Shown here in pieces: positions 17,433-57,200 of a DNA stretch of 64,000 nucleotides. The notes beneath the pieces are model-generated. The model was not told the DNA's origin and searched no databases. It saw only the letters and a program-made list of their open reading frames with translations. A program made the position numbers and the translations under genes. The first letter of the stretch is position 1. Every line of letters starts with the position of its first letter. Source of the DNA: an uncultured Bacteroidales bacterium (GTDB taxonomy: Bacteria; Bacteroidota; Bacteroidia; Bacteroidales; CAIXZF01); NCBI GenBank assembly GCA_903923925.1, contig CAIXZF010000035.1, positions 310,001-374,000 on the forward strand, read 5' to 3'.

Positions 17433-18887
17433 ATGACCAAGTTGAGGAGGTTATTTATCATAATATGCATTTTAGCATCCGCAATTAAAGGTTTTCCGGA
17501 AGTTTGTTTTTGCGATTCAAATTACTCTAATAAAGTTTTGATAATTAAACAAATAGTTTTTAGTGGGAATCTAGTTACTAAGGAAAGTATTCTTTTGCGC
17601 GAATTACAGTTCCTGGTTGGGGATACAATTAGTGAACAGGATCTCAATTCTGCTATCTCTGTTAGTCGTGATAACCTGACCAATACTTCGCTTTTTAACT
17701 TTGTTACAATCCAAACAGAAGCTCTACCTGATTTAGGTTCTAAAAAACCTGATCAAACTTATTATGAAGTAAGAATAAAGATTAATTTGATTGAAAGGTG
17801 GTATACCTGGCCATTTCCTGTATTCCTTATTAAAGAGAGAAATTTTAATTCCTGGGCAAAAAGCAGGTCGATTAATGATATTACCTATGGTTTTTTTCTA
17901 CAGCAAAATAATTTCAGAGGCAGAAAAGAGAGGCTGCTCCTTACTCTTTTATATGGATATGACCAGAAAGCCGGACTGACATACGAAAAACCATATATAA
18001 ACAGAAAGCAAACAATTGGTTTTGTTTGTTCTGCCTTTTTTACCAGAAATCATTCCGCTTCTTATGCCAGTTATCAGAATAAAGTTCAAAGTGCAAGGTT
18101 TATTGATGATTTTATTCTGAACAACGTTGAATTACTTACAAGGTTAACTTACAGGAAGGACTTTCATGTATATCATTCACTTTCTGTGAAATACACAAGA
18201 CTGAATTTTTCAGATACACTTTTAAAACTAAACTCTGATTTTAATTTTGAAAAAATGAAACACCCTGATTTCTGGGGTTTTACATACAGGCTTAAAGTAG
18301 ATTTTCGTGACAATCAACCCTACCCTTTAAAAGGTTGGTTTTTTGATACTGAGTTTATTAAAACGGGAATTGATTTAACAGGAGGACAGAAGCCTGACCT
18401 CTTAAATGTTAAAAGTTCCTTGCGAAAGTATGTTGAGTTTACACCTCGATTCCATTACGCTGCAGGAATTAATTCGAAGTATTCATTTGGCCAATATGTT
18501 CCTTATTATTATCAGAAGGCACTGGGGTATGAAAATGATTTCGTCAGGGGATATGAGTATTATGTTATTGATGGTCAGGATTATATGCTTGTAAAAAATA
18601 ATTTCAAGTGGACTATTCTGCCGACAGTAGAAAAAAACATTCCTTTTATCAAAACAGAAAAGTTCAGTAGAATTCACTATACAATTTACATGAATGTTTT
18701 TGGCGATTTTGCCTATGTTAATGACAATACACTTAATAATGCCAATTTACTGGCAAATCGTTGGATTTCAGGATTAGGAGTAGGATTTGATTTTGTGACC
18801 TATTATGATAAAGTATTCAGGATTGAATTCTCCAGAAACAACAAGGGTGAAACTGGCTTCTTCCTGAATTTTGTTTCTCCTATTTAA
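17433..18887 (+). CDS. Small Omp85-family outer-membrane protein (POTRA plus barrel)
   Basis: 484 residues. After an N-terminal hydrophobic signal comes one POTRA-like module (LIIKQIVFSGNLVTKESILL ... GDTISEQDLNSAISVSRDNL ... LFNFVTIQ), then a beta-barrel region rich in aromatic strands and ending FFLNFVSPI. Omp85 proteins insert or move proteins or lipids at the outer membrane. This one has fewer POTRA modules than the bamA found 6 kb downstream in the same unit, and its cargo is unknown. It begins 3 bases after the CBS-protein stop. Confidence 0.8.
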   Translation: MTKLRRLFIIICILASAIKGFPEVCFCDSNYSNKVLIIKQIVFSGNLVTKESILLRELQFLVGDTISEQDLNSAISVSRDNLTNTSLFNFVTIQTEALPDLGSKKPDQTYYEVRIKINLIERWYTWPFPVFLIKERNFNSWAKSRSINDITYGFFLQQNNFRGRKERLLLTLLYGYDQKAGLTYEKPYINRKQTIGFVCSAFFTRNHSASYASYQNKVQSARFIDDFILNNVELLTRLTYRKDFHVYHSLSVKYTRLNFSDTLLKLNSDFNFEKMKHPDFWGFTYRLKVDFRDNQPYPLKGWFFDTEFIKTGIDLTGGQKPDLLNVKSSLRKYVEFTPRFHYAAGINSKYSFGQYVPYYYQKALGYENDFVRGYEYYVIDGQDYMLVKNNFKWTILPTVEKNIPFIKTEKFSRIHYTIYMNVFGDFAYVNDNTLNNANLLANRWISGLGVGFDFVTYYDKVFRIEFSRNNKGETGFFLNFVSPI

Positions 18888-18924
18888 GAATGATGTATTT
18901 TTGCTATTGTTCAAAAGCAATAAA

Positions 18925-19803
18925 ATGAATTTCGCTATTTACGGTAAAACATTATCTCCGGAATATTTGCTATACGTTCAGCATATTGTGGATAAGTTAC
19001 AAGATTCAGGATGTGGAATTAGTGTATACGAACCTTTTTATGAAGTTCTTGAAAGCCAGATTTCTTTTCTTCAACCACCACCTTTTTTTAATGATAGTAA
19101 GGGATTATTTCCAGACACTGATTTATTATTGTCGATAGGAGGTGATGGTACTCTATTGGGTACAATTCTGCTCGTTAAAGATTCAGGGATTCCTGTTTTG
19201 GGTGTTAATATGGGAAAGTTAGGTTTTCTTTCTTCTGTATCGAAAGAAGAAGTTTTAAATGGTATTGATGAAATCCTTTCTGGCAGGTATAAACTGGATC
19301 AACGAAGCTTGCTAAAAGTGGATACGATAAATAATCCTTTTGGCGATTTGAATATCGCACTTAATGACCTTATGATCTTTAAACGGGCTCCAACCTCTAT
19401 GATAACAGTTCAGACATGGGTAAACGATGAATATCTAAATTCCTATTGGGGAGATGGTTTGATCATTAGTACACCCACCGGTTCAACTGGTTATTCAATG
19501 AGTTGTGGTGGTCCTATTATTCTCCCTGGAAGTGATAATTTTGTCATTACTCCGATAGCTACTCATAATCTCACTGTAAGGCCAATGGTTATACCCGACG
19601 GGAGTATTATCCGTATTAAAGTTGAAGGTAGAGATACACGGTTCATTGTTGGTTTGGATTCCCGATCCTGTGAGTTTGATTTTGAAACTGAATTCATAGT
19701 TCGTCGTGCTGAGTTTAAAATCAAATTGTTACAAATGGAGAATCAGAATTTTTTTAAAACAATCAGAGCAAAACTAAACTGGGGACTAGACGCTCGTAAT
19801 TAG
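18925..19803 (+). CDS. nadK: NAD kinase
   Basis: Phosphorylates NAD to NADP with ATP in the cytosol. The GGDGT motif (LSIGGDGTLLGTI, ~residue 75), GVNMGKLGFLSS, the ND motif in ALNDLMIFKRAP, the NAD site TPTGSTGYSMSCGGPII and the C-terminal LTVRPMV box are all intact. 292 residues from the ATG at 18925, which begins MNFAIYGKT, a standard first strand; a start at 18871 would overlap the Omp85 gene and add a hydrophobic stretch. Its place between an Omp85 gene and PorG-like genes is a frequent Bacteroidota arrangement as far as I recall. Confidence 0.96.
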   Translation: MNFAIYGKTLSPEYLLYVQHIVDKLQDSGCGISVYEPFYEVLESQISFLQPPPFFNDSKGLFPDTDLLLSIGGDGTLLGTILLVKDSGIPVLGVNMGKLGFLSSVSKEEVLNGIDEILSGRYKLDQRSLLKVDTINNPFGDLNIALNDLMIFKRAPTSMITVQTWVNDEYLNSYWGDGLIISTPTGSTGYSMSCGGPIILPGSDNFVITPIATHNLTVRPMVIPDGSIIRIKVEGRDTRFIVGLDSRSCEFDFETEFIVRRAEFKIKLLQMENQNFFKTIRAKLNWGLDARN

Positions 19804-19852
19804 CTGCACTTCACTTGTTTTGTATTATAGAAAGCCATACTTTTACTCTCAA

Positions 19853-20782
19853 ATGAAAGCTGCAAAAGCCTTACTACTATTGATCTGCATATTGCTGATC
19901 TCAACAGAGGTTTCCTCCCAGATCCGATCCAAATATCTCCGTCGGTATCGTACGCGCGAGCTTTCGTTTTGTATTGGTGCTACAAATTTTATTGGTGAGC
20001 TTGGTGGAGCAAACAGATTAGGTTCAGAAACCTTCAGTCTGAGAGATTTTGACTTTCCGGCAGTCCGCCCAACTCTTGGAGGAGGTGCAAGTTATCAGAT
20101 ATTAAACTGGGCCAGTTTAAAAACAAACCTAGTTGTTGGCTATATGCGGGGAAGAGATAAATGGACGAATTATGAATCAAGAGAGAAAAGGAATATTGAT
20201 TTCAGAACTATTCTTGTTGAGGTTTCTGAGCAATTCGAAGTTTATCTCACTAAATCAAAGCAATCCAGAACTTTTTATAACCTGAGAAGTGCAAGAAAAG
20301 GATTTAACTTTTATAATTTCCCGTTTACAACATATCTGTTTGGTGGTGTAGGTCTTTTTTATTTTAATCCACAGGGAAGAGATAAAGATGGGCAATGGCA
20401 ATATGTTCTTCCATTTCATACAGAAGGACAAGGATTAGTACCAACCCGCAAAAGCATTAAACAAATACAAATATGTATTCCTCTTGGTATTGGATTTAAA
20501 TATCCTATTGGAGGTGGATATTCTGTTGGTATGGAATATGGATTAAGGAAAACGTTTACTGATTACATCGACGATGTAAGTATGACTTATTTCGACTATA
20601 AATATTTAAAACAGAATTATGGTGAAGAGGCTGTTAGCCTTGCTAATCCCACAGATTTAATATATCTTGTACCTGGTGAACAACGCGGGGATCCCAGAGA
20701 TAAAGACGCTTATATGTTTGCTTTAATAACTATCTATAAAGATATCTCTAAGATTAGTCGCATCAGGAATTTCCGGTTCTGA
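19853..20782 (+). CDS. PorG-like outer-membrane protein (DUF6089), copy 1
   Basis: 309 residues with a signal peptide (MKAAKALLLLICILLISTEV, ending near SSQ). The mature protein is a small outer-membrane barrel of the DUF6089 family. Shared marks: FCIGATNFIGELGG at the start, TYLFGGVGLFYFNPQGRDKDGQW, TEGQGL, FTDYIDDVSMTY and RGDPRDKDAYMF. In Porphyromonas gingivalis the PorG member is a T9SS outer-membrane component that contacts the PorK/PorN ring and lies next to uppS and bamA, the same neighbourhood as here. It is the first of three tandem paralogues. An in-frame ATG at 19820 would add 11 residues before the signal. Confidence 0.82.
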   Translation: MKAAKALLLLICILLISTEVSSQIRSKYLRRYRTRELSFCIGATNFIGELGGANRLGSETFSLRDFDFPAVRPTLGGGASYQILNWASLKTNLVVGYMRGRDKWTNYESREKRNIDFRTILVEVSEQFEVYLTKSKQSRTFYNLRSARKGFNFYNFPFTTYLFGGVGLFYFNPQGRDKDGQWQYVLPFHTEGQGLVPTRKSIKQIQICIPLGIGFKYPIGGGYSVGMEYGLRKTFTDYIDDVSMTYFDYKYLKQNYGEEAVSLANPTDLIYLVPGEQRGDPRDKDAYMFALITIYKDISKISRIRNFRF

Positions 20783-20794
20783 TCTTTTTATAAA

Positions 20795-21646
20795 ATGAAG
20801 AAAATCATCCATATCATCCTTCTTGTTCTCTGTGCTTCAGGTATTTCTGTAGCACAGCGTCCTTTTGAAATGGGCGTTATGGCAGGTGGCACCTTGTACC
20901 ATGGAGATATTGCCAGATTCTATCAGTCTGGAATTCGTCCAGGTATTGGTATTACTGCAAATTATAGTTTTCAGCTTCCTGTGGCTGTTCGGGCAAACCT
21001 TATTTACGGGAATGTTGCAGCAAAGGATAAATTAAATCCTTCAAGCAAATTGAATTTCAAATCTCCGATTTATGAATATTCTGTTCAATTCGAATATTTA
21101 ATAACAAGACTCAAATCGAGAACTAGAAACTATAGCGTAAAATCGAACAGAAGAGGATCAAGGTTCGACAATTTTCCTGCTATTACTTACGTTTTTGTTG
21201 GAATTGGGCAATTCGCCTTTAATCCTAAAGGAAAATATACTGACGGATCCTGGTATGAATTGCAGCCATTATCAACTGAGGGACAAGGCTTGATTTCTAC
21301 AAGAGAACAGTATAAAAAAATGTCTTTAATAATTCCATATGGAGCAGGTATCAGATTTCTGGTAGAAAAAGGATTTTATTTAGGATTTGAAGTTGGAATC
21401 CGGAAAACATATACAGATTATCTGGACGATGTAAGCCTTACCTATGTTAATACATCATTAATAAGAACGAATAATGGTGATATTGCAGCATATTTTGCAG
21501 ATCCAGCAGAAAATCCTGATCTGACTGCAAAGTATCCTGCTGTTTCAAGAGGGAATCCAAAATACAAGGATGCTTATATGTTTACCTTCGTATCTTTGTC
21601 GTACGATTTTCCCAAACAAAAACGAACTACAAAATTTAAGTTATAG
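20795..21646 (+). CDS. PorG-like outer-membrane protein (DUF6089), copy 2
   Basis: 283 residues; signal peptide MKKIIHIILLVLCASGISVA followed by QRPFEMGVMAGGTLYHGDI. The family marks repeat: TYVFVGIGQFAFNPKGKYTD, LSTEGQGLISTREQYKK, TYTDYLDDVSLTY, RGNPKYKDAYMF. It is closer to copy 1 at its C-terminal half than at the N-terminus, which suggests an old duplication and not a recent one. 12 bases separate it from copy 1, and its TAG stop overlaps the GTG start of copy 3 by one base. Confidence 0.82.
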   Translation: MKKIIHIILLVLCASGISVAQRPFEMGVMAGGTLYHGDIARFYQSGIRPGIGITANYSFQLPVAVRANLIYGNVAAKDKLNPSSKLNFKSPIYEYSVQFEYLITRLKSRTRNYSVKSNRRGSRFDNFPAITYVFVGIGQFAFNPKGKYTDGSWYELQPLSTEGQGLISTREQYKKMSLIIPYGAGIRFLVEKGFYLGFEVGIRKTYTDYLDDVSLTYVNTSLIRTNNGDIAAYFADPAENPDLTAKYPAVSRGNPKYKDAYMFTFVSLSYDFPKQKRTTKFKL

Positions 21647-22524
21647 TGAAGAGTCCTCTTTTTAAAGAAATAGTTTTAATAACTTCGTTCGTTTTCGTTG
21701 TAATATCTTTTTCATATTCACAGCGGTCCGAGATAGGTGTTTTTGGTGGAGGTTCATACTACCTGGGTGATCTTAATCCCGGGAAACATTTTGGCAATAC
21801 CAGTCCGGCAATTGGCCTTGTTTACAGATATAATGCTACATCTCGCTGGGTTTTAAAAGCAAATGCTATATTTGGTTCATTAATTGGAGATGATGCGAGT
21901 TCTGTGGGAGCTGATAAACAAAGAAATTTATCGTTTAAATCAAATATTTTTGATGTAAGCGGTCAAATTGAGCTTAATTTTTTTCCGTATTTTACAGGGA
22001 GCAAGAAAAATAAATTTACCCCTTATATCTTTACCGGGATAAGTGTATTTAACTTTAAACCTAAGGCAGAATACAATGGTGAATGGTATGATTTACGACC
22101 ATTAGGCACTGAAGGCCAGGGAACAAAGACTTATTCTTCGCGGAAAACTTACGGTTTAACTCAATTGGCTATCCCTTTTGGGATAGGAATTAAACTAAGT
22201 CTGAATAAAATTATTTGTATAGGAGCAGAATGGAGTATGCGAAAAACTTTTACTGATTATATTGATGATGTGAGCACAACCTATGTTGATCCAGTTAAAC
22301 TTTCAACTGAAAAAGGATTGGTTGCAGCATCATTATCAAATCGTTCAATTGATATACCCGGGTCAGCACCTTTAATTACGGGAATGCAGCGTGGTGACCC
22401 TAAAACTAAGGATTGGTATTCATTTGCCATGATAACTTTTACAGCAAAAATTTATACAAAAAAGAACAAAGGTTGTCATGATTATCAGAAACATTCCAAC
22501 TACGACGAATTCCTTTTGAATTGA
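21646..22524 (+). CDS. PorG-like outer-membrane protein (DUF6089), copy 3
   Basis: 292 residues starting at a GTG that overlaps the stop of copy 2 (TAGTG), implying coupled translation. A signal-like segment precedes SYSQRSEIGVFGGGSYYLGD. Family marks: YIFTGISVFNFKPKAEYNG, GTEGQGTKTYSSRKTYG, FTDYIDDVSTTY, RGDPKTKDWYSF. It has a Lys-rich, poorly conserved tail after TFTAKIYTKKNKG, unlike copies 1 and 2, which end right after the last barrel strand. Confidence 0.8.
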   Translation: MKSPLFKEIVLITSFVFVVISFSYSQRSEIGVFGGGSYYLGDLNPGKHFGNTSPAIGLVYRYNATSRWVLKANAIFGSLIGDDASSVGADKQRNLSFKSNIFDVSGQIELNFFPYFTGSKKNKFTPYIFTGISVFNFKPKAEYNGEWYDLRPLGTEGQGTKTYSSRKTYGLTQLAIPFGIGIKLSLNKIICIGAEWSMRKTFTDYIDDVSTTYVDPVKLSTEKGLVAASLSNRSIDIPGSAPLITGMQRGDPKTKDWYSFAMITFTAKIYTKKNKGCHDYQKHSNYDEFLLN

Positions 22525-22573: not shown

Positions 22574-23317
22574 ATGAGCTTTAAAGAAAAAATTGACAGC
22601 AAACGTTTACCTAAGCATATCGCCATAATAATGGACGGTAATGGTCGATGGGCTAAACAAAGAGGTGAGTTCAGAGTATTTGGACACGAAAATGGTGTAT
22701 CCTCTGTTCGTGAAGTAAGTGAGGCTTGTACCGAACTCGGTATACAATATCTCACACTTTATGCGTTTTCTACAGAAAATTGGAACAGACCCAAATATGA
22801 AGTTACAGCACTTATGGAGCTTTTGGTGAAAACAATTCATTCTGAATTGAAAACGCTTAATGAAAATAAAATTAAGCTTCTTGCTATTGGAGACATTGAG
22901 AGTCTTGAAGAAAATTGCAAGAATGAACTTCGGGAAGCTATTCAGATTACAGCAGGGAATACTGGTTTGAATCTGGTTCTAGCTTTAAGCTACAGTTCCA
23001 GATGGGAAATTACAAATGCTGCTAAATGTTTGGCTCTTGAAATTAAATCAGGGAAAATAGATCCGGAGCAAATCTCTCAGGAGGTTTTCGAAAAATTTTT
23101 GAATACTTCTGAAATGCCGGATCCAGAATTACTTATAAGAACAAGTGGGGAATACCGCATCAGCAATTTCCTTCTTTGGCAAATTGCATATGCTGAATTA
23201 TATTTTACGCCTAAACTATGGCCCGATTTTCGTAAGGAAGATCTTTATGAGGCTATCGTCGATTTCCAAAACAGGGAACGCAGATTTGGCATGACCAGTG
23301 AACAACTTAACCCTTAA
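22574..23317 (+). CDS. uppS: Isoprenyl transferase (undecaprenyl diphosphate synthase)
   Basis: A cytosolic, membrane-associated cis-prenyltransferase that makes the C55 carrier for peptidoglycan and O-antigen. Diagnostic strings: LPKHIAIIMDGNGRWAKQRG with the catalytic Asp, FRVFGHENG, LTLYAFSTENWNRP, and the C-terminal PDPELLIRTSGEYRISNFLL followed by QIAYAELYFTPKLWPDF. 247 residues, normal. It is followed by bamA after 7 bases, as in many Bacteroidota. Confidence 0.97.
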   Translation: MSFKEKIDSKRLPKHIAIIMDGNGRWAKQRGEFRVFGHENGVSSVREVSEACTELGIQYLTLYAFSTENWNRPKYEVTALMELLVKTIHSELKTLNENKIKLLAIGDIESLEENCKNELREAIQITAGNTGLNLVLALSYSSRWEITNAAKCLALEIKSGKIDPEQISQEVFEKFLNTSEMPDPELLIRTSGEYRISNFLLWQIAYAELYFTPKLWPDFRKEDLYEAIVDFQNRERRFGMTSEQLNP

Positions 23318-23324
23318 TGAACCG

Positions 23325-25946
23325 ATGAAGAACAGGCCTCTGTTACTACTATTACTACTATTCATATTTCCTTTCAGTCTTTTTAGTCAGATAAGCATTG
23401 GTGATGAATTACAGGGAATAGATTATGCGAATCCCAAAGATTATAAGATTGGGGGAATTACCTTTAGTGGTATTCAGTACATAGATAATAATATTCTGCT
23501 AACTCTTACAAATCTAAAGGTTGGTGATAATATTAAAGTTCCCGGAGAAGGGATTACTGATGCGGTTAAAAAGCTTTGGGATCAGGGATTATTTGAAAAT
23601 ATTGCAATTTCGGTTTCTAAAGTTCAGGGTGACAATATTTTCCTTAATATTCATCTGACAGAAAGACCCAGATTGTCAAAATTTACATTCACGGGTGTGA
23701 GAAAAGGGGAAATTGAGAACCTTAGAGATGAACTTAAGTTAATGGCTGGCGATGTTATTACTGACAATGTAATAATCAGGGCACAAAATAAAATAAAAGC
23801 ATATTTTGTAAAAAAAGGCTTTTTAAACACTGCCGTTGACATAACTCAGAAAAGAGATACAACCCGCGATAACAATATTATCTTGTTTATTAGTATTAAG
23901 AAGAATGGGAAAGTCCGCATTGCAACAATAAATATTAATGGGAACTCCAAATTAACTGATCTGAAAATCAGGAATACAATGAAGGAAACGAAGGAAAAGG
24001 GTATATTTAAACCTTTTGAAATTCTTGACTCATTGATTTTAATAACAGCTAAACAGGCATTAAAAGTACCATACCAGCAATTACTTGATAGTTACGTTAG
24101 AATTCTCACTGAGAACACAAAAATTAGAATTTTTAAGTCTTCTAAGTTTATCGAAGAAGATTATTTAGCAGATAAACTTAAAATTATTGAGCGGTACAAT
24201 GAAATGGGTTATAGGGATGCTCAGATTGTTTCTGACAGTATTCAGAAAAACAAAAACAATACAATAACAGTAAATATTTCATTGGCGGAAGGGAAGAAGT
24301 ATTATTTCAGGAATATAGTCTGGGTAGGAAACACGAAATATCCGAATAAAACACTGGACGCAATTCTCAAAGTCAAAAAAGGAGACATCTATAATCAAAA
24401 AATGCTTGATGCGAATCTCTCTTTTAATCCTGCCGGACTTGATATTAGTTCGCTTTACCTTGATGATGGATACTTGTTTTTTAATGTTGAGCCTGTTGAG
24501 ACAAGAGTTGAAAATGATTCTATAGATCTTGAAATAAGAATCCGTGAGGGTAAACAAGCTCGTATCAACAAAGTCCTTGTGAGAGGCAATACAAAAACAA
24601 ATGATCATGTAATTATACGAGAGATACGAACCAGACCAGGGCAATTATTCAGCAGGTCGGATATTATCAGAACCACAAGAGAACTCGCTCAGCTCAAATA
24701 TTTTGATCAGGAGAAAATACAACCTGTTCCAAAACCCAATCCTGCCGATGGTACTGTTGATATTGAATACAATGTTGAAGAGACCTCATCTGACCAGATT
24801 GAATTAAGCGGAGGTTGGGGATATGGAAGAGTTGTTGGGACTCTGGGAGTTTCATTTAATAATTTTTCACTAAGGCATATTTTCGACAAGAAATCATGGG
24901 GTCCTATTCCTTCCGGTGATGGACAAAAGTTGTCAATTCGATTACAATCCTATGGTACAGGATACGTTAGCTACAATGTCTCTTTCACAGAACCATGGCT
25001 AGGGGGCAAGAAACCGAATTCTTTCAGCGTTTCTTATTTTCACAGCCTGTATTCAAATGGGTTAAAAAAGAGTGATACAGCACGGTCTTCCTTTGTTATT
25101 AATGGAGTTGTTATCGGCTTGGGGAAAAGACTTCAATGGCCGGATGACTATTTTAGCATTTATCATAATATTTCCTTGCAACGCTATGATTTACAAAAAT
25201 ATACACAGATATTTTCTTTTTCCACAGGCTATTCTAATAACTTTTCTTACGGTATAAGTATTTCAAGGAATTCAGTTGATGCTCCGATTTTTCCAAGACA
25301 AGGATCAGAAGTCTCGTTATCATTGCAAATAACGCCACCATATTCATTGTTTAGTGATAAAAACTATAAAACAATGACTGACAGAGAGAAGTATAAAATG
25401 ATAGAATACCATAAATGGAAGTTCTATGCAGCATATAATACTAAACTATTCGATAATTTTGTGTTAAATTCAAGAGTCAAATATGGATTTTTAGGAATGT
25501 ATAACAGCGATATTGGGGTTACTCCTTTTGAAAGATTTTATATTGGTGGTGATGGCCTTTCAGGATACAACAACCTCGATGGTCGCGAATTGGTTGGCTT
25601 ACGTGGATATGCAAATGAATCAGTTACGCCGGGATATTATACCAGCTCTTCCAAAGGAGGCACTATTTACTCTAAATATACATTGGAATTAAGATACCCG
25701 ATTTCTCTAAACCCCAATTCTACCATATACGCTATGACTTTTCTCGAGGCAGGTAACGCATGGACAAAGTTTAAGGAATTTAGTCCGTTCGACATGAAGA
25801 GGTCGGTTGGGTTGGGTGTTAGAGTATTTCTGCCAATGTTTGGTGTGCTGGGTCTCGATTGGGGGTATGGTTTAGATAAAATTAAAGGAGCTCCGTCAGC
25901 AAGTGGAGGACAGTTTCATTTTTCAATTAACCAATCAATCGATTAA
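23325..25946 (+). CDS. bamA: Outer-membrane protein assembly factor BamA
   Basis: The central Omp85 insertase that folds beta-barrels into the outer membrane. 873 residues: signal peptide (MKNRPLLLLLLLFIFPFSLF), then a series of POTRA modules to about residue 445 (for example ITFSGIQYIDNNILLTLTNL, KFTFTGVRKGEIENLRDEL, NKVLVRGNTKTNDHVIIREI with TRPGQLFSRSDIIRTTRELA), then the 16-strand barrel with the lid-loop motif ELVGLRGYAN and a Bacteroidota-type end QFHFSINQSID. The ATG at 23325 precedes the signal directly; an in-frame upstream ATG at 23298 overlaps uppS. The end of the gene runs up to 55 bases before skp copy 1. Confidence 0.96.
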   Translation: MKNRPLLLLLLLFIFPFSLFSQISIGDELQGIDYANPKDYKIGGITFSGIQYIDNNILLTLTNLKVGDNIKVPGEGITDAVKKLWDQGLFENIAISVSKVQGDNIFLNIHLTERPRLSKFTFTGVRKGEIENLRDELKLMAGDVITDNVIIRAQNKIKAYFVKKGFLNTAVDITQKRDTTRDNNIILFISIKKNGKVRIATININGNSKLTDLKIRNTMKETKEKGIFKPFEILDSLILITAKQALKVPYQQLLDSYVRILTENTKIRIFKSSKFIEEDYLADKLKIIERYNEMGYRDAQIVSDSIQKNKNNTITVNISLAEGKKYYFRNIVWVGNTKYPNKTLDAILKVKKGDIYNQKMLDANLSFNPAGLDISSLYLDDGYLFFNVEPVETRVENDSIDLEIRIREGKQARINKVLVRGNTKTNDHVIIREIRTRPGQLFSRSDIIRTTRELAQLKYFDQEKIQPVPKPNPADGTVDIEYNVEETSSDQIELSGGWGYGRVVGTLGVSFNNFSLRHIFDKKSWGPIPSGDGQKLSIRLQSYGTGYVSYNVSFTEPWLGGKKPNSFSVSYFHSLYSNGLKKSDTARSSFVINGVVIGLGKRLQWPDDYFSIYHNISLQRYDLQKYTQIFSFSTGYSNNFSYGISISRNSVDAPIFPRQGSEVSLSLQITPPYSLFSDKNYKTMTDREKYKMIEYHKWKFYAAYNTKLFDNFVLNSRVKYGFLGMYNSDIGVTPFERFYIGGDGLSGYNNLDGRELVGLRGYANESVTPGYYTSSSKGGTIYSKYTLELRYPISLNPNSTIYAMTFLEAGNAWTKFKEFSPFDMKRSVGLGVRVFLPMFGVLGLDWGYGLDKIKGAPSASGGQFHFSINQSID

Positions 25947-41083: not shown

Positions 41084-42766
41084 TTAGAAAGTAAAAGTAA
41101 GGCCGGCCAATACATTGAATTTCTGGCTTGGGTAATTGTTCCAGAAATAATACCGGGTATTTGTAAGATTATTCAGGTTAATGAATGCAGATAACATCTT
41201 TGTATACCTGTATTCAAAACTAAGATTAAAATCAGGACGGCTTCTGATGAACTTTGATTCTACTTTTCCTTGAGAATTGTAGGATAGCGCATACATTCTG
41301 TCATAATAGATGAACTCAGCACCCACCAGGATTTTGTTCTGAAGATTATATTTCCCACCAATACTGAAATCATAGTCGGGCCGTTGCCATGGCAAAGCCT
41401 GATTCGTGGAGGTTGTATACTGATGGTAATTGAATCTGATCATTGATCTGAACACTTCACTCCATTGATATGCGATCTCCGAATTAATCTCAAATAAACC
41501 GCAGTCGTCATCATAGATTACCCTGAATTTATTTTGATACGGCATTGCCAGGTCGTTGACGTAGAAAGGCATGTTTTTGATCTGCGATTTTGAAAAGCTA
41601 ACCTGGACATCTAACACATGAAATAATGTGCTATTAATACCACCATAAATACGGTATTTGATGTCTTTATACATCAACTGAATGTCAGATACCACAAATG
41701 GGTTTTCCTGTATGAATTTAAAAAAACTGTTTCTTTCTGTACCTCCATCAAAACCAGCGTTTAACCTTAACCAATATGGAATTAATGTTAAACCAAGTTT
41801 AATATCAGGGTGAATTCGTAAAAAGGCAGTAGAATCTGCTTCAACTTCAGTTTTAATTCCGAATCTGATTTCGAGGTCCTTAACTTTTGTTTCTATTGCT
41901 GGGTTTAATGTTACAATTGCTGAAGAATGTGATGACCAGGTTGCAGATTTGTCATTAAAGAAATCTACAGCGGTTTTTAATTCCCAATGTTGAGTAGGGG
42001 ATAAATCTGAAAATTTCTTTGTTTGTCCGACCTTCCCGTAAACACAAATATTCATTTCCCTGGTGTTAAATTTATCGGTAAGGTGATAAAAATCTAATCC
42101 AGCCTGATAGCCCACCTTAGATGAATCAGTATAAACACTCGAAATCTTTCCACTTAATTTTATAGTTGAGAATCTTTGCTTTATATCGTTCTTAGATGGC
42201 TCAGGAGTGAAATCAGTGGGATTGTACCCGTAGAAATGAACCACATCTCTCGAGAATCCAGTTTTACCGGTTAAATTGAATTGCTTATCCTTGTAGTAGG
42301 AGCCATTCAGATCTATAGCATTTTCACTGAATCCAGGGAAGCCATAATCTTGTATTTTCCCGGAGGAGGCTTTGTGTTTAACATGACCACCAAAACTTTT
42401 TGTCTTCGATCTCGTATTCATATACCAATATTCGCCGTAGGATGTGAAGTATGAACCTCCGCCAGCCTTAAGGTAATTTGAATATAGTTTGGTAATCGGT
42501 TCGCCTGTCATTTTAGCAGCTTCAATTGCTTCCGGCTCATATTTAACTTTAATCTGATTGTTGAGTATTTTATAGCTAAAATTTGGCTTTGGCTCAGTAG
42601 TGTCATTTGATACAGGATTGAAATTTATTTTATTCGCATCCTTGATATCTGGCTGATATGGAGCAACAACCGTCATCTCAACTTTATGAGGATCGGTCTG
42701 AGCTATTGTCTGGACCGCACAAAATCCAGCTAAGCAGAAAAGAATAATTATGTTACTTATTTTCAT
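41084..42766 (-). CDS. Outer-membrane barrel protein, TonB-receptor-like, paired with a TPR protein
   Basis: 560 residues; signal peptide to about CAVQTIAQ, then TDPHKVEMTVVAPYQPDIKD, a conserved N-terminal segment, and a long alternating beta pattern rich in Tyr and Phe. It ends FNVLAGLTFTF, a C-terminal barrel strand with final Phe. There is no plug domain or TonB box, so it is not a complete TonB-dependent receptor. Its start overlaps the end of the 1035-residue TPR gene by 14 bases, so the two are translationally coupled and probably work together. The function of this pair, which I believe is widespread in Bacteroidota, is not known to me. Confidence 0.75.
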   Translation of the reverse strand: MKISNIIILFCLAGFCAVQTIAQTDPHKVEMTVVAPYQPDIKDANKINFNPVSNDTTEPKPNFSYKILNNQIKVKYEPEAIEAAKMTGEPITKLYSNYLKAGGGSYFTSYGEYWYMNTRSKTKSFGGHVKHKASSGKIQDYGFPGFSENAIDLNGSYYKDKQFNLTGKTGFSRDVVHFYGYNPTDFTPEPSKNDIKQRFSTIKLSGKISSVYTDSSKVGYQAGLDFYHLTDKFNTREMNICVYGKVGQTKKFSDLSPTQHWELKTAVDFFNDKSATWSSHSSAIVTLNPAIETKVKDLEIRFGIKTEVEADSTAFLRIHPDIKLGLTLIPYWLRLNAGFDGGTERNSFFKFIQENPFVVSDIQLMYKDIKYRIYGGINSTLFHVLDVQVSFSKSQIKNMPFYVNDLAMPYQNKFRVIYDDDCGLFEINSEIAYQWSEVFRSMIRFNYHQYTTSTNQALPWQRPDYDFSIGGKYNLQNKILVGAEFIYYDRMYALSYNSQGKVESKFIRSRPDFNLSFEYRYTKMLSAFINLNNLTNTRYYFWNNYPSQKFNVLAGLTFTF

Positions 42767-45700
42767 TGATTAGGCTTTCTGTTTCGTTGTTAAGTTCTGC
42801 TTCTTTTGCTTTTCTTACGTCGTCTTCTTTTTTCTGGATTTCTGCTTTTTCAGCATCGTTTATTGCATTGAGCTTCTGATGAGCAATCTCAACCAGATCA
42901 GAACCATCATAATTGTCGATGATACTTTGAAGTGTTTGTTTTGCTTGAACGATATTTCCAAGTTTTACATAAACATCAGATAGAAGAATGAAATTTCTGG
43001 CAAGCCAGGCATCATAAGCTGAGAATTCGTTAATAAATTCGAAAACCATTTTTTCAGTTTCCTTGTAATTTCCCTGATTAAATTGAAGTAGAGCCAAATA
43101 ATATTTGGCTTCAGCTCCTTTTTCGCCCTTCGTTAATTTATAAGTAGCTTCAAATTCTGTTTGAGCCAGGGAGGTTTGATTATTATCAAAAGCCGATTTA
43201 GCCATTGTAAGATGTGCCTCTGTTAATAACTCAGTAGAAATTTTCTCGGCACCAACTAATTTTTTTCCGGCAATAATAGTACTATCGTATTTTTTTAACT
43301 GATAATTACAACGCATTATTCCGGTTAATGCAGTTAGCTGATTTGCAGGGTTATCAGCAGAAGCCTCTAAACTTGTAAAGCTATTAAGTGCTTTATCATA
43401 TTCTTTTTTTGAAAAATTATAGTTTGCAACATTAACCAGAGCTGTTTCAGTAAACTTTGATTTGGAGTTACTGATAACATACTGATAAAAAGGAACTGCC
43501 TCATCTGTTCTATTCTGTCTGAAAAGACACTCTGCGAGGTAAAAATTTGCATTCAGCCGGAAAATCCCTTGCTGAAATTTATCCAGATAGTTCTTGAAAC
43601 CCTGACCTGAACTGTTACAATCGCCGGCCATGTATTGGTTTTCAGCAGCCTGATATGTAATAGAGTCCTGTTCGGCGTTAGAAACATTTGCGAATGGAAT
43701 ACTTTTAGCATACACGAAAAAGTCATCAACTTTATTCAAATCAACATAAATGTTCCGGATACTCACCAGGGCTTCTTTTGATTCAGACGTACCCGGGTAA
43801 TCAGATACAACCTTGCGGAAGGTTTTCAATGCTTCCTGATCATTGTCAGTATTATAATAGATAAGCCCTAATCGTAATAATGCATTTTTTACGAGTTTGT
43901 TTCCAGGATGTTCTTCAACCAAACGTTTGAATGAAGTTAAAGCATTCGTTTCGTCACCAATACTCAGATAAGTGAGTCCTAATTCATATTTTGCTTCATC
44001 AACAAGGTTTGATTTCGGATAAATGCTCATTAATTCTTTTAGTGCTTCTGTTTTTTCTTTTGGCCGGCCTGCAGCTCCCAAGGCTAATGCCTTTTGGTAG
44101 AAGGCATAATCGCCATCTGACTTTCTCATTTTTGAAGCCAGGTCATATTGAATAATTGCATCCTCATACCTTTTCAAAACGAAGAAACAATCACCTGCTC
44201 TCAACAATGCATCATTTTGTAGTTTCGGATCGTTTTTTTCTCCGGCAGCAATATATTTACGAAATTCGGTAAGAGACTTGTCGTATTCTTTCTGTTTAAA
44301 ATAGCAATAGCCCAGGTTGTAATTGGCATCCCTGTAAAATTCAAGGCTAAATGCTCCGGGAGTAGTCAGAAACTGCCGGTACTTTGAAGCTGCTTCATCG
44401 TAATTGCCAAGTCTGTATTTAGCTTCACCTATCCAATACCAGGAACTTGCGCTAATTTCCCTGTCATAATTATTGTCTGCGACCTTCTTAAACCAATCAA
44501 CTGAAGCTTTATAGTCACCTGAGTTGAAAACTTCAATCCCGTATAAATAGCTAAGCCTTAAATAGGCTGCTTTGAGTTTTTCATTTTTGGTTTTAATATT
44601 GTCAAGAATACCAATTGCATCTTTGTAATTCTTAGTCGACATAAAAAGATTAACGAGGTAAGTATATGCTTCATCAATTCTTCTTGACTCAGGATACTCC
44701 TGTAAATATTGCTTTAGCGCTTTAATTGCCTCATTGTAAGGATTATATCCAAGTTCATAGCTAAGCTTTGCATAGTTAAATAGGGCATCTTCCCTGATTT
44801 CTTTGTCAAAACCTTCCTTGTAAGCAGAATAAAATGAATTTAATGCAAATTTTTTCTGCCCCTTGCGAACATAACAATCACCAAGATGATAAAAGGCATC
44901 CTGGCTCAAAGAGTCTGATTCGGAAACGGCTTTGTTAAATTGCTCAATTGCTTTGTCGCAATTTTGAGTTTTATAATAGGTATACCCGAGTTCATAATAA
45001 TCTATTCTGTTAAGAGGAAGTTTTGTTTTTTCTTGATAAAGCTCAAGGTAGGGGAGAGCCTCTGAATACTTTTTAGCCTGGTATAAGGCTTCACCTGTCA
45101 TCCTTGCAATTTCTGGAATACGTTTAGTATTTGAAGTTTGAAGAAGGGTAGGAGCTAAAACTAAAAGTTCCTCAAAGTTGCCCAGTTTATAATAAATCTG
45201 AGCAATATAAAAAGGAACAATGTTTTTAAAAACTGCATCATCTTTAAGTGCTTGAAATTTAACAAGCGATTGATCATATTTCTTTTCAGTATAAAGAATA
45301 TGAGCCAGATAGTATTCTGACGCTGAGAAATATGTGGAAGAATTTCCACTTATTCTTTCGAAAGCTTTCGAAGCCTTTGAATTATCATTTATCCGCAAAA
45401 AACTATATCCCATTTTAAAGAAGTATTCATCTCTTTCCTTACCTCTGAGTTCATTAATCTGAACGGCTTCCAGGTATTGAATCGATTTACGGAAATTATT
45501 TTTCCTGTATTCAAGTTTTCCAAGTTGAAGATTGGCTGATAAATGTCTTGTATTCGCAGGAGTAGTTTCAAGAAATTCCGAAAAAGTTTGGTCAGCATTA
45601 TTGTTGAACAATTCAAAACCGCAAACTGCTGCGTAATACTCAGCAGTTGATTTCAATAATGAGGACTGATCCTTCAGTTGGTCGCTGACTTCCAGAAACT

Positions 45701-45860
45701 TATCTCTGGCAGCAACATATTTTTCTTTATTGAAGAGATCAAGCGCAGTCTGGTATCCTGCAATGGGATCTTCATAGATGATAGTCTGTTGCGAATGAAG
45801 TGAAGATGAAACGGTTATAAAGAATAAAAGAGCCAAAATGGGCTTGTGGTACGCTTTCAT
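42753..45860 (-). CDS. Large periplasmic tetratricopeptide-repeat protein
   Basis: 1035 residues with a signal peptide (ILALLFFITVSSSLHSQQ). Nearly the whole rest is TPR helices, about 25 units; good examples are QDAFYHLGDCYVRKGQKKFA, DANYNLGYCYFKQKEYDKSL and NALLRLGLIYYNTDNDQEAL. The C-terminal ~35 residues are a Glu/Lys-rich tail. TPR arrays bind partner proteins; the overlapping gene for an outer-membrane barrel implies that the partner is at the outer membrane. Resembles YbgF/BamD-like arrays only in fold. A weak promoter-like TACTTTTA lies upstream near 45885. Confidence 0.85.
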   Translation of the reverse strand: MKAYHKPILALLFFITVSSSLHSQQTIIYEDPIAGYQTALDLFNKEKYVAARDKFLEVSDQLKDQSSLLKSTAEYYAAVCGFELFNNNADQTFSEFLETTPANTRHLSANLQLGKLEYRKNNFRKSIQYLEAVQINELRGKERDEYFFKMGYSFLRINDNSKASKAFERISGNSSTYFSASEYYLAHILYTEKKYDQSLVKFQALKDDAVFKNIVPFYIAQIYYKLGNFEELLVLAPTLLQTSNTKRIPEIARMTGEALYQAKKYSEALPYLELYQEKTKLPLNRIDYYELGYTYYKTQNCDKAIEQFNKAVSESDSLSQDAFYHLGDCYVRKGQKKFALNSFYSAYKEGFDKEIREDALFNYAKLSYELGYNPYNEAIKALKQYLQEYPESRRIDEAYTYLVNLFMSTKNYKDAIGILDNIKTKNEKLKAAYLRLSYLYGIEVFNSGDYKASVDWFKKVADNNYDREISASSWYWIGEAKYRLGNYDEAASKYRQFLTTPGAFSLEFYRDANYNLGYCYFKQKEYDKSLTEFRKYIAAGEKNDPKLQNDALLRAGDCFFVLKRYEDAIIQYDLASKMRKSDGDYAFYQKALALGAAGRPKEKTEALKELMSIYPKSNLVDEAKYELGLTYLSIGDETNALTSFKRLVEEHPGNKLVKNALLRLGLIYYNTDNDQEALKTFRKVVSDYPGTSESKEALVSIRNIYVDLNKVDDFFVYAKSIPFANVSNAEQDSITYQAAENQYMAGDCNSSGQGFKNYLDKFQQGIFRLNANFYLAECLFRQNRTDEAVPFYQYVISNSKSKFTETALVNVANYNFSKKEYDKALNSFTSLEASADNPANQLTALTGIMRCNYQLKKYDSTIIAGKKLVGAEKISTELLTEAHLTMAKSAFDNNQTSLAQTEFEATYKLTKGEKGAEAKYYLALLQFNQGNYKETEKMVFEFINEFSAYDAWLARNFILLSDVYVKLGNIVQAKQTLQSIIDNYDGSDLVEIAHQKLNAINDAEKAEIQKKEDDVRKAKEAELNNETESLINENK

Positions 45861-49880: not shown

Positions 49881-52823
49881 ATGAAAAACAAATATTCTAC
49901 TGTTATTATGCGAAAGTTCCCTCATTGGATAATTTCTGTTTTACTAGCCATATTTTTTACAATAACGGCGAACTCATCTTTTTCTCAGGCCAGGATGAAG
50001 CTCGATACTATTTATGCTTGCCCCGGTGATACTATTAAGGTACCTATTAAAGCAAGCAATTTCCCTAGTGTCGGCTCAATTTCTGCTGTCTACGGTTACA
50101 CCAGCTCGGTTTTGACATATTTGGGATATACATATAAGTCTATGCTGAACACGGGTTTTCTGGTTTTAAATGGGGCAATTCCTGGAACAATTTCAATGGC
50201 CTGGTATTCAACAGCTCCTCTTAACCTTGTTTATGACTCTATTATTACTGTAAGATTTATTTTCAACGGAGGCACTACCAACCTTATTTGGGATATGAAT
50301 ACATGTGAAATTACCAATGTTAGCGGTGTTCCTATTGCATCAAACTTTATTAATGGTTTAGTTTCAGACCTTCCCAATCTGGCTCATATAAATTCTAATC
50401 CTGTAAATGTTATTGATTGTTTAGGTGATACCGTAAGTTTTCATATTACTTCAAGTAATACTACATTTATTCAATGGCAGGTTAGTACAGACAATGGCGT
50501 TACCTGGAATGATATAGCCAACGCTCTTCCGTATTCTGGTGTTTTTACAAATAACCTTACTATTTCTGGAATAACTCTTGCGATGAATAATAACAAATAT
50601 CGTTGCAGAGTAAGAGGGCATTGTCCACCTTCTCAGGTCCCCGATATAATTTCAAATAGCGCAGTGTTAACAGTTAATGGCCCCCCGGCAATATTTGCCG
50701 GAAATGATTTTGGGATTTGTTCAGGACTTAACGCTAATTTGAGTGGTACAGCAACTTCATACTTGTCAATAAACTGGACATCAGCAGGGAGTAGCGGAAC
50801 CTTCACCGGAAATGGCACTTTAACTCCTACATATACTCCAAGCGGGGCGAATATTACAGCAGGATCTGTTGTGTTGTACTTAAATGCAGTTCCACTTGTA
50901 GGATGTGGTGCAAGTAAAGATTCATTAAATCTGACTATTTATCCAATTCCTGTTGCAAATGCAGGGAATGATACAACTATTTGTATAGGTGGACTTGCTT
51001 ATTTACATGCATCGGGAGGAACAGTGTTTTCATGGAATACTATTCCTGTGCAAACATCGCAGGTAGCTGTGGTAAACCCTGTTGATACATCAACATATAC
51101 CTTGACAGTAGGGCAAAGTGGTTGCACTGATACTGATGTTGTTACCGTTAACGTGGTTCCTGTCCCAGTAATATATGCTGGACTTAACGATACAATTTGT
51201 GAAGGCGAAAATGGAACTTTTATTGGAACCGCAATTAATTATTCAACAATAAATTGGTTAACTTCAGGAAATGGAACTTTTTCTGATCCAAACTCTTTGA
51301 GTACGGATTATACTCCAAATGCATCAGATATTTCGGCTGGTCTTGTTGAGATTTACTTTACAGTTGTTCCCAATACTCCTTGCTCAACTATTGTTTCAGA
51401 TACATTGTTGCTTGTAATCAGGCCGTTACCTCACGTTTCTGCAGGTCTTGATAAACAAATTTGCATTGGTGATACTGCTACATTAATTGCAACAGGAGCA
51501 ACAACTTATACGTGGAATACCACACCAGTTCAGACAAATGACACAATAACTGTTATCCCTCAGCTTACAACAACTTATGTATTAACCGGAACTGCTGCTA
51601 TTTGTTCTGCTGTGGATAGCGTTAAAGTTGTTGTTCATATGTTGCCAAACGTTAATGCAGGTAATGATACAACAATTTGTTTCGGAACGAGTGCCACACT
51701 AATGGCCGTTGGAGGAATCTCATACATCTGGAATACAACATCTCCAACCCCTTTTATTACAGTTTCTCCAACTATTACAACCTCATATACTGTAACTGCA
51801 ACGGGACCTTTCAATTGTAAGGCGTCAGATGCTGTAACTGTATTAGTTAATTCTAATTTAACAGCATCAATTTTACCGTTAAATCCTGTTATATGTGCTG
51901 GTGATTCTGTTGAATTAGAAGCAAGTGCGAATCTTCCTGTCAGTTTCACCTGGTCACCTTCTTTGGGCTTATCTGCCACTAATGTACCTGTTGTTATGGC
52001 AAGTCCTTACATGACAACAGATTATGAAGTTCTTGTAAAAGATAACAATCTAAATTGTACAGCAAAAGCAACAGTTACACTTACAGTTAATCAAAACCCA
52101 ATTGTTCAGGTGCATCCATCAGCAATTACAATCTGTGAAGATGATACCATTACCCTTTCAGCATACGGAGCGTTGAATTATTATTGGTCGCCTCCAACTG
52201 CTTTGTCTTCAAATACATTGCCAACTGTAATGGCTAGTCCTATGGATTCAATATCCTATTTAATTATTGGCACTGATGCAAATGGCTGTGTTGATAGTTT
52301 TCAGGTAAATATTAATGTCAACAAGAGACCTCATGTCACTCTGCCGGAAAATACAATAGTTTGTCAGGGAACAAATTATCTTCTTGATGCAGGTGCATAT
52401 CTTGATTCATGTAACTATTTATGGCAGGATGGTTCAACTCAACAATTTTTCTATGCATCTGAGCCCGGTACGTACGCTGTAGTAGTCAGTAAACTTGGTT
52501 GTACAGCTACAGATTCAACAATTATTTATCCATGCTCAGAATTGTTTGTGCCCAATGCATTTTCGCCTAATAACGATGGGATTAATGATGTCTTTTATGT
52601 TATAAACTCAGGCGATGTTATCGCTTTCCATATGGTAATTTATAACAGATGGGGAGAGGTAGTATTCCAAACTTACAATATTAATCAAGGTTGGGATGGA
52701 ACTTATAATGGTGTTAGAAGCCCAGTTGGAGTTTATCATTGGGTTATTGAATATTTAGGTCAGGGGAATGTGCTTCTTGAACAGGAAGGTAAAAAATATG
52801 GCCAGATTACTTTATTCAGGTAA
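49881..52823 (+). CDS. Cohesin-like and Ig-repeat surface protein with T9SS type B sorting domain
   Basis: 980 residues. Signal peptide (ISVLLAIFFTITANSSFSQ); cohesin-like beta domain ~40-165 (YACPGDTIKVPIKASNFPSV ... LNTGFLVLNG ... TTNLIWDMNTCEI); an Ig-like domain with WQVSTDNGVTWNDI that recurs in the 2102-residue giant; then about eight Ig/SprB-like repeats, each with the pattern NAGNDTTIC...Y..W...CTDTDxVTVNV; and a gliding-associated type B C-terminal domain (LFVPNAFSPNNDGINDVFYV ... YNRWGEVVFQ ... WDGTYNGVRSPVGVYHWVI). Such proteins go to the surface by T9SS and often act in gliding or adhesion. Its end overlaps the convergent MATE gene by 12 bases. Confidence 0.85.
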   Translation: MKNKYSTVIMRKFPHWIISVLLAIFFTITANSSFSQARMKLDTIYACPGDTIKVPIKASNFPSVGSISAVYGYTSSVLTYLGYTYKSMLNTGFLVLNGAIPGTISMAWYSTAPLNLVYDSIITVRFIFNGGTTNLIWDMNTCEITNVSGVPIASNFINGLVSDLPNLAHINSNPVNVIDCLGDTVSFHITSSNTTFIQWQVSTDNGVTWNDIANALPYSGVFTNNLTISGITLAMNNNKYRCRVRGHCPPSQVPDIISNSAVLTVNGPPAIFAGNDFGICSGLNANLSGTATSYLSINWTSAGSSGTFTGNGTLTPTYTPSGANITAGSVVLYLNAVPLVGCGASKDSLNLTIYPIPVANAGNDTTICIGGLAYLHASGGTVFSWNTIPVQTSQVAVVNPVDTSTYTLTVGQSGCTDTDVVTVNVVPVPVIYAGLNDTICEGENGTFIGTAINYSTINWLTSGNGTFSDPNSLSTDYTPNASDISAGLVEIYFTVVPNTPCSTIVSDTLLLVIRPLPHVSAGLDKQICIGDTATLIATGATTYTWNTTPVQTNDTITVIPQLTTTYVLTGTAAICSAVDSVKVVVHMLPNVNAGNDTTICFGTSATLMAVGGISYIWNTTSPTPFITVSPTITTSYTVTATGPFNCKASDAVTVLVNSNLTASILPLNPVICAGDSVELEASANLPVSFTWSPSLGLSATNVPVVMASPYMTTDYEVLVKDNNLNCTAKATVTLTVNQNPIVQVHPSAITICEDDTITLSAYGALNYYWSPPTALSSNTLPTVMASPMDSISYLIIGTDANGCVDSFQVNINVNKRPHVTLPENTIVCQGTNYLLDAGAYLDSCNYLWQDGSTQQFFYASEPGTYAVVVSKLGCTATDSTIIYPCSELFVPNAFSPNNDGINDVFYVINSGDVIAFHMVIYNRWGEVVFQTYNINQGWDGTYNGVRSPVGVYHWVIEYLGQGNVLLEQEGKKYGQITLFR

Positions 52824-54260: not shown

Positions 54261-57200
54261 TTATTTAGAAATGCTAAACAGGTGTGTTTTAATCTGTCCG
54301 TTAAGTTCAATCTTCAGGATATAAACACCCTGACTAATCGAACCAGCATCAAATTTAAGATTATGGTTTCCAGCTTCTACATCTGAATTCAAAAGTTCAG
54401 AAATTTCTTCGCCAATAATACTGAAGAGTTTTATATTAACTTTTCCAGATTCAGGTAAAGAATATGACACTGTTGTTGTTGAAGAAACAGGATTAGGATA
54501 GTTAGTAATACTTAATTCAGTATTTTCTGAGGAGATTTTAGGAATAATTAGGTTGGCACCTTTAATTGTAACAGCATTTTCATCAGAAAGAACACTGCTT
54601 CCAACCATTGTAATGGATAGATCATTGTGTGATCCAACATTCATATAAATGTTCAGAAGGCATTCTCCGGCAGAAACAGTTAGCGGATCAAGATCATACC
54701 AGCCAATTCTAAGTTCGTTATCGATCACATTGAAAAGTACTTCTTCTCTATTTGATGAAACGATTTTTGTAATACTAATGCCTGATGGAATTTCAAGTTT
54801 CATTGAAATAGCACCAACTGTAAGATTTTGTTCAGAGATTATTGGCAAAACTACATTGCCATTTGCATTAACAGCTACACTACCTTCACGATTCAGGTTT
54901 ATAGTAGGTTCAGGTTTCATAAATGGTGGAATATAATCACCATTCACATCACTTGCACACAGCGAATGTATGTTAACTACTGGTGATACAACTCCATCAA
55001 TTACAAAGCTTGGTGTTTCAAATAACCAATCACTAATTGGTAAGAAGTTAGAAATCATACCTAAGAAACGCCTTACTGTATTTAGAGCATCATGTGAATT
55101 TACTTTTCCATTTCCTGTAACGTCACCAGCGGTGAGGTACATGCCTGTAAGTTGTTGATTCCCTGTAAAATGTTTTAACATGAGAAGTCCGTCAGCAGCA
55201 TTTCCTCCACCCCAGGCTTTAGTTGTATTCGCAGTAACATGATACGAACCTGTAGAAAGGTCAGAAAAACCATAGTTGCCGTTGGCATCTGTTGTTGTTG
55301 TTGCAACCAAACTGTTAAGGTTGTCAAATAAATTAACAGCAACGTTATTCATTGGTGTTGAACCATCATTGAGGTATGACACAACTCCAGTAATATTATT
55401 CGATGCAATTATTACATTGACTGTTACTGTACTCATACTTGAACAACCATAATAATCTGTAACTACTAATGTATAGGTTGTAGAGAATATTGGTGTTGCA
55501 GTAGGATTCGCAATTGTAGCATCATCTAATCCTGTTGCAGGAGTCCACAAATAAGTGTAAGGAGCTGTTCCACCTGAAACTGAAGAGGTAAGTACTGTTG
55601 ATTCACCTGCACCTATAGCTGCGTTATTCCCTGCACTTACTAAAAGTGATGGATTAATACCTATTGAAGCAGAACCAGACATCATACTTGTACATCCGGC
55701 CAGATCATTAACAGCTACAATAGTATAATTGCCAGCTGCAAAGAAATATCCAAAATTCATAGCTTCACCTGTTCCTGCAACCCCGTTTCCAGTATTTACA
55801 TTATCAAGTTGTACAAAATAAGAAACACCTGTTTCAGAACCACTAAGCATGATTTCAGAACCATTTCCATTTTCACAATAAACTCCACCTCCCATTACTT
55901 CGAAAATTGCAGGTAATGGTGTTACACTGATGCTACCATTTACATAGTTTACATTAAGAACATTGTCATTCAAGTCAACTAACTGACAATTTCCTGGTGT
56001 AAATAAATCCCAGCTAACAACAGAATTGCCAGAAACTCCTGCAAAAATATAGTTAACAAGTAATCCAGTACCTATGTTTGCAGGTGCAATGTTGAAATAA
56101 CCCAGTTTTACTTGGTTATCAAGTACATTGATGCTGAAAAAGCCATTTTGAATTTCAGTATTTAGATCAGAATAACCGATATAACTAACCAAGTTCTGAT
56201 CAAATGTTAATGATAATGAAAGTGAAGCTACATTGGAGAAGTTCTCTACAGATACAGGGATGACAAATTCGCCAGGACAGCTGTTGGCTATGCCAGCAGT
56301 TATTGTAATGGTTGCTGATTCAACTGATAATGATGCGGCATCTGAAGTTGCAAAAGAAGGACAATCTCCAAAAGCAAGACAATGGAACATTTGTCCACTC
56401 ATTGATTGTGAAACATTAAATATGCCTAACACATCTGAGTTGACTCCATTGTAGGTGCCATCGTTTGAAAGGTTGTTCCAGTTTACTCCTCCATCGGTTG
56501 AAACTTGCCATTGTAGGAAATAAGCGTTAGCAGATACTACAGTGAACGAAGCATCATTACCTGAACTAACTGTTACATTTGATGGTGAAGTTAGTGATGG
56601 AAGCCCGATTACTATAATATCCTGAGATGCGGAAGAACCACAAGCCGCTAGATCACCATATGTATAAGAAATTGTGAAATTACCTCCACCGGTTAGTGTT
56701 GGGTAAAATAAATTACCAACTACACCAGGTCCACTGTATACTCCACCTTCTGGTTGACCATTGAGAACAACAGGATTGCCATCAGCACATACAGGTGCCA
56801 ATTGATCCAGAGTTACTAAAGTGTTGGTGGTTACTTCTGCAGTTTGAGTAATTTCACTTGTACAACCACTAATATTTGTGAAAGTATAAGTAATTATGTA
56901 AATGTTAGGCTCTACTGTACCAGGATAGAAATAGTTGTCATATACTCCGATTCCGGTAAAATAGCCACCTTCAGGATATGCAGTAAGTAATATTGGTTCA
57001 GAACCGGTACATACAGTAGGAATAGAAGGGAACTGAAGTTCTGTCAATGGGTTCACTGAAATAGTTTCTGTGATGGATCCGGTACACCCTGATTCATTTG
57101 TATAAGAATATGTAATTTCATGAACACCAATTCCGGCAGATGCTGGGTCAAAAATATTACCAATCATTCCATTTCCTGAGAAAACTCCACCTTCTGGATA

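Follow-up and report, generated by a model that had tools for sequence, protein, structure and literature searches.

In the window studied here (the whole stretch of DNA that was analyzed, 64 kb long), three co-directional barrel open reading frames (ORFs), designated genes A, B, and C, fill the interval from nadK to uppS. Gene C is the ortholog of PorG, a component of the type IX secretion system (T9SS), and, taken alone, is an ordinary and already known kind of gene. The sequence comparisons firmly point to A and B as members of a separate, old sister family of PorG, with genes that immediately precede porG in many genomes of the order. This family is apparently undescribed, as no earlier description of it was found in a literature search that did not extend to bioRxiv preprints or to the majority of subscription papers. 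The array and its neighbors are as follows.

18871-19803, + strand: nadK, the upstream border of the array (NF002521, 367 bits, above cut-off)
19853-20782, + strand: gene A, cysteine-less barrel of the PorG sister family, first copy; signal peptide; eight strands (AlphaFold2); tail ...SRIRNFRF
20795-21646, + strand: gene B, cysteine-less barrel of the PorG sister family, second copy; tail ...KRTTKFKL
21646-22524, + strand: gene C, PorG ortholog with tail Cys277
22474-22476, + strand: codon of Cys277 of C, coordinates derived from the start of the ORF; by homology, Cys277 is predicted to form a disulfide with GldK (PMC12635249)
22574-23317, + strand: uppS, next gene 3' of porG (C) (TIGR00055, 297.6 bits, above cut-off)
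23298-25946, + strand: bamA (TIGR03303, 306.3 bits, above cut-off)

Gene A has an in-frame TTG upstream, at 19820, and the stop codon of B (TAG) and the start codon of C (GTG) overlap by one base. Profile searches placed two OmpH/Skp-type genes downstream, on the bamA side, and a POTRA-domain gene together with nadK upstream. The POTRA-domain gene (17433-18887), directly upstream of nadK, encodes a 484-aa protein with a weak likeness to the BamA profile (46 bits) and accompanies the locus in some relatives and not in others; a link between this gene and copy number was considered and dropped, since by eye it was both present and absent beside one-copy as well as two-copy loci.

Family membership and architecture of the three barrels

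All three ORFs matched Pfam DUF6089 (PF19573) above its gathering score of 23.2 (26.2, 45.6, and 112.8 bits for A, B, and C, respectively), and the NCBIfam profile T9SS_PorG (NF052316) returned 77.9 bits for A (E value, 8.5e-22), 100.3 bits for B (1.2e-28), and 185.9 bits for C (7.9e-55). With such E values the relatedness of the three lies far beyond chance, and given the PorG equivalog cut-off of 130 bits, only C qualifies as PorG. Identity to A was 36% for B and likewise 36% for C. When the own genome was searched with the PorG profile, A, B, and C were recovered together with one weak match elsewhere (27 bits); among 14 well-known genomes used as a control, the profile matched one (E. coli), below the cut-off. 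The strings TEGQG, TDY(I/L)DDVS, and RG(D/N)P-x2-KD-x-Y are common to A, B, and C, and the initial annotation of three tandem DUF6089 genes with shared strings thus agrees with the ORFs, the gathering scores, and the strings themselves. Across the order, TEG[QE] occurs in 37/101 last (uppS-side) copies and 30/49 upstream copies, and TDY[IL]DD in 36/101 and 25/49, respectively; being frequent in both, the strings are family signatures rather than something special to this trio.

As far as the accessible text of PMC12635249 goes, PorG of Flavobacterium johnsoniae is a predicted eight-stranded barrel whose periplasmic C-tail cysteines form a disulfide with Cys343 of GldK, tethering PorG to the moving GldK track, as reported in 2025, and the PorG-GldK cysteine pair is required for type A secretion and gliding. 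PorG of Porphyromonas gingivalis has a single tail cysteine, the tail cysteines are stated by the authors to be a conserved PorG feature, SprF is likewise disulfide linked to GldK, and additional, disulfide-independent PorG interactions are inferred (PMC12635249). In the accessible text of PMC7323717, PorG is listed among the T9SS components, with no mention of paralogs or duplication.

Gene C and PorG (P. gingivalis PG0189, F. johnsoniae Fjoh_1692, and NF052316) are alike in profile score, in the uppS-bamA neighborhood, in the modeled eight-stranded barrel, and in the tail cysteine. The Cys277 column of C was invariant in the 26 rows of an alignment, and C lies directly upstream of uppS, whereas A and B are the copies not adjacent to uppS and have no cysteine after the last strand. 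A and B share with PorG the Pfam family and the loop signatures common to C, as well as the fold in the model of A, but differ from it in their sub-cut-off scores, the absence of a tail cysteine, another tail, a longer periplasmic turn, and a separate clade. The SprF/PorP carriers resemble A and B as outer-membrane barrels with a short periplasmic C-tail but belong to a different Pfam family (PorP_SprF, PF11751).

AlphaFold2 modeled both A (pLDDT 81) and C (pLDDT 85) with eight strands and a C-tail outside the barrel, that of C being of low confidence. A PDB fold search with the model of A returned generic barrels only, with eight-stranded barrels of the OmpA, OmpW, and NspA type among the best matches; the likeness is at fold level only (7 to 12% identity among the matches listed). 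By our mapping on the model of A, extracellular loops 3 and 4 are where TEGQG, TDYIDD, and RGDP are located. The modeled topology would place the turn that joins strands 4 and 5 in the periplasm; this turn had a median length of 30 residues in 28 upstream rows versus 19 in 32 last rows (samples of the 49 and 101 copies of the order, respectively), and in many upstream copies of the order it carries a basic stretch such as GHRYNLRRVRG. With the loop strings alike and the turn and tail unlike, A and B resemble C on the outside and would depart from it on the side that faces the periplasm, in which the track is located.

Copy number, tails, and phylogeny across the order

To describe the distribution of the array, 119 genomes were drawn from the order, and the PorG locus was taken from each of the 101 genomes with an over-cut-off PorG match, the window included; a second over-cut-off match of one genome (G059), near a contig start, was left out. 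Three copies were found at the porG locus in 11 genomes, two in 27, and one in 63, the last figure being an upper bound given that five single-copy loci are open upstream at contig ends. Since upstream copies stand beside porG in only 38/101 genomes, they are dispensable. A tail cysteine was present in 101/101 last copies and in 0/49 upstream copies. Many upstream tails instead resemble KTxRxGLPKF, a GLPKF-like end being found in 20/49 upstream versus 0/101 last copies and an end in KF or RF in 27/49 versus 4/101.

Last copies at weaker and more distant loci were likewise examined for a cysteine. Ten genomes of the order had only sub-cut-off PorG matches, and in all 6 of those examined the last copy on the uppS/bamA side had a cysteine within its last 36 residues, as did 11/11 such copies from other families. 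Among named loci (the best 80 of 574 relatives, so that the counts lean towards A-like loci), the last copy had such a cysteine in 48/49; the exception, L231, precedes an ORF broken by ambiguous bases, and an upstream copy was therefore scored as the last one. The fixed 36-residue window also returned a cysteine in 6/68 upstream copies of this set, in each case located by eye in or before the last strand. The named set overlaps the order set, the gene content of L194 being that of the genome of L025. Lineages with the tandem array among these relatives include Marinifilum, Salinivirgaceae, and Flavobacteriales, represented mostly by metagenome assemblies. One copy without a tail cysteine (L133, the second of two) has no neighboring uppS and groups with the upstream clade. 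A profile of the upstream copies, run against the phylum, matched 76/296 genomes, PorGs included, and 40 chosen stretches, mostly best matches, were examined.

A first tree, built from 150 proteins and with the tail columns retained, separated the 49 upstream copies completely from the 101 last copies (SH-aLRT 99). In a second tree of 159 proteins, from which the tail columns were removed and to which dispersed copies and other families were added, A and B fell into a clade of 68 rows (support 98) without C, and C fell inside a group of 48 last copies (support 93). The rows of the second tree were samples of the order plus named rows, L104 and L107 excluded. The trees came from quick searches, with SH-aLRT as the only support measure, and the curated PorG profile and class-level relatives took the place of the named PorGs of P. 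gingivalis and F. johnsoniae as reference. The last copies did not form one group, as 5/59 PorG-type last copies, from other families, lay outside the main PorG group. One row of the A/B clade (L241) has a cysteine close to its end, which by eye belongs to the last strand.

The placement of C among PorG-type last copies in both trees, together with its score over the cut-off, its position next to uppS, Cys277, and the eight-stranded model, identifies it as PorG; as PorG members, A and B fail on cut-off, tail cysteine, and clade. The initial annotation had proposed that one copy keeps the PorG role and that the others have new partners: C bears out the first part, and with regard to the second, what was found is that A and B are of a different family. 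Branches near the A/B clade include cysteine-tailed proteins of other families (with ends such as RCPKYF, GCPKW, and KCPP), which suggests that the ancestor of A and B lost the cysteine. The six upstream copies of other families fell outside the A/B clade, have a turn of median 20 residues, and carry a tail cysteine in 2/6 cases; hence the traits that define A and B apply within this order and to its close relatives.

It is highly unlikely that A and B are redundant PorG copies in the course of being lost, with no function of their own. Such a fate would fit their patchy presence, which changes 15 times on the PorG tree, and their faster change relative to C (identity between the two family members, 60 to 62% for A, 52 to 53% for B, and 67 to 68% for C), but redundant copies would hardly form a single deep clade with a distinctive tail and turn, be retained across the order and outside it, and be free of internal stops in the matches listed for A and B.

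Secretion machinery and possible roles of the upstream barrels

Matches to the machinery were counted at E ≤ 1e-60 for GldK, E ≤ 1e-40 for GldJ, and E ≤ 1e-10 for PorP/SprF. The own genome has one GldK over the cut-off, one SprA, a single visible PorP-GldK-GldL-GldM-GldN cluster, and GldJ on another contig, and a single GldK match was found in 10/11 triple-copy genomes, the remaining one (G034) having a second match below the cut-off. The reactive-cysteine column of GldK was Cys in 21/21 aligned GldKs; in the own genome it is Cys323, judged equivalent to Cys343 of F. johnsoniae from spacing and context. With one GldK and one SprA, the three copies share one machine or do something else, rather than serving three machines. 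A separate secretion system for each copy was rejected on the single GldK and SprA, and the earlier suggestion that the copies are parts of three separate T9SS or track complexes, natural as it is for three divergent paralogs side by side, becomes extremely improbable in view of these counts and of the one PorP-GldK-GldL-GldM-GldN cluster. The initial annotation had also named two cases that would tell against it, i.e., that none of the three groups with PorG or that relatives with a single T9SS always have three copies; C groups with PorG-type last copies, the copy number of relatives with one GldK ranges from one to three, and neither case applies cleanly.

Its remark on a load of T9SS cargo in the window was confirmed, with T9SS sorting domains in three of the four large proteins checked:

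60741-63989, 54264-60569, and 49881-52820: T9SS sorting-domain proteins, two of type A and one of type B

The window also encodes, at 42753-45860, a 1,035-aa TPR protein whose match to PorW/SprE stays below the cut-off (96 bits against 250). The gldK-linked PorPs (L174-L193 and L114) have C-termini of the form R[FIY]L in 21/21 cases, one with one extra residue, and no cysteine in the last 15 residues; this end adds a further short tail motif facing the track.

Upstream copies occurred in 38/86 genomes with a GldJ match versus 0/15 without one (Fisher P = 0.0008), an association carried by roughly two lineages, given that a single clade accounts for 14 of the 15 rows lacking GldJ; 56/119 genomes were over the GldJ cut-off. 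The eight genomes of the order without any PorG-profile match were also without GldK and PorP/SprF matches. The median number of PorP/SprF matches was 7 in genomes with upstream copies, 4 in single-copy genomes with GldJ, and 1 in those lacking GldJ.

On the preferred reading, to which we give about an even chance of being right as a whole, C would be a PorG tethered to GldK by a disulfide, and A and B would be accessory barrels of this one T9SS/gliding track, docking on it noncovalently. By analogy with F. johnsoniae, the eight-stranded outer-membrane barrel of C would be coupled, through a disulfide between its tail Cys277 and GldK Cys323, to the moving track from which type IX secretion draws its power. 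A and B appear to have kept the barrel and the extracellular-loop signatures without the tail cysteine, in place of which stands a short basic-aromatic end, often xPKF and here FRF in A and FKL in B; in the order, their strand 4-5 turn, predicted to be periplasmic, is about ten residues longer and often basic. Lacking the cysteine that locks PorG to the track, A and B therefore probably serve the same machine differently. We infer that they most likely act on the same single T9SS/gliding track or translocon as C and that their docking may be noncovalent, with certain carriers or the placement of the track as conceivable purposes.

Two other roles have to be weighed. The first, which we regard as unlikely, is that A and B act with BamA/Skp in barrel assembly or in envelope upkeep and share only the locus with PorG, as the co-directional run nadK-A-B-C-uppS-bamA-skp could equally suggest through its bamA neighborhood and as their un-PorG-like periplasmic side would permit. 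However, relatives of A and B also occur away from bamA, and genomes without a PorG-profile match have no GldK, although the locus could be lost as a block. Moreover, the BAM complex of F. johnsoniae is reported, in the text accessible for it, without T9SS components, and the accessible text of two BAM structure papers names no PorG-type subunit, the species concerned being ones that may or may not carry A/B-type genes. The second, that A and B are barrels dedicated to certain cargo carriers (PorP/SprF-like) or adhesins as their specific partners and are not general parts of the track, draws on the excess of PorP/SprF matches in genomes with upstream copies (7 versus 4; P = 3.5e-5, uncorrected), of which genome size is not the cause. 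When relatedness was allowed for, however, the excess was not significant, with only four independent supported pairs, in which the change was in the same direction in 2.0 on average and in the opposite direction in 0.2, and we consider this role distinctly unlikely.

Returning to accessory barrels on a shared track, a bolder form of this reading, tentative and on balance doubtful, is that A and B represent a third class of track client in Bacteroidota. The CPKF-like tail of a cysteine-tethered ancestor would have become xPKF and a basic periplasmic turn would have been added, so that these barrels could ride or regulate the GldJ/K/N track noncovalently, perhaps steering type B carriers. If so, the tail change would mark where clients switched, in evolution, between a locked and a releasable form.

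PorG-like barrels elsewhere and wider meaning

Other PorG-like barrels were scored as lying away from uppS. Dispersed copies had a cysteine in the last 36 residues in 16/25 cases, the copies with a cysteine near the C-terminus being from other families (L137-L139, L142, L143, L145-L147, L149, L150, L153-L156, L159, and L166). Such dispersed cysteine-tailed barrels are possibly further disulfide-linked clients of the track, and some may be the own PorG locus of those genomes. The own genome encodes, on another contig (C35; L115:2782-4578), a 599-aa protein with a weak PorG-like barrel on its N-terminal side (24.5 bits) and a weak SPOR match, and frames of about 455 to 600 aa were also matched weakly in further genomes of the phylum. 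Proteins of 766 and 772 aa with a PorG-like barrel were also seen (L116:172-2469 and L117:399-2714, respectively); in the former, mapping puts the barrel at the C-terminus, and hardly any tail follows it.

For annotators, these findings call for caution, as tandem DUF6089 genes are not all PorG. For the biology of the track, the A/B family would offer a natural cysteine-less counterpart of PorG, standing next to porG in 38/101 genomes, in which the barrel is kept and exactly the tether is absent. With such a counterpart, one can test whether only high load calls for covalent attachment and whether the track is also used by other outer-membrane proteins that have no tether.
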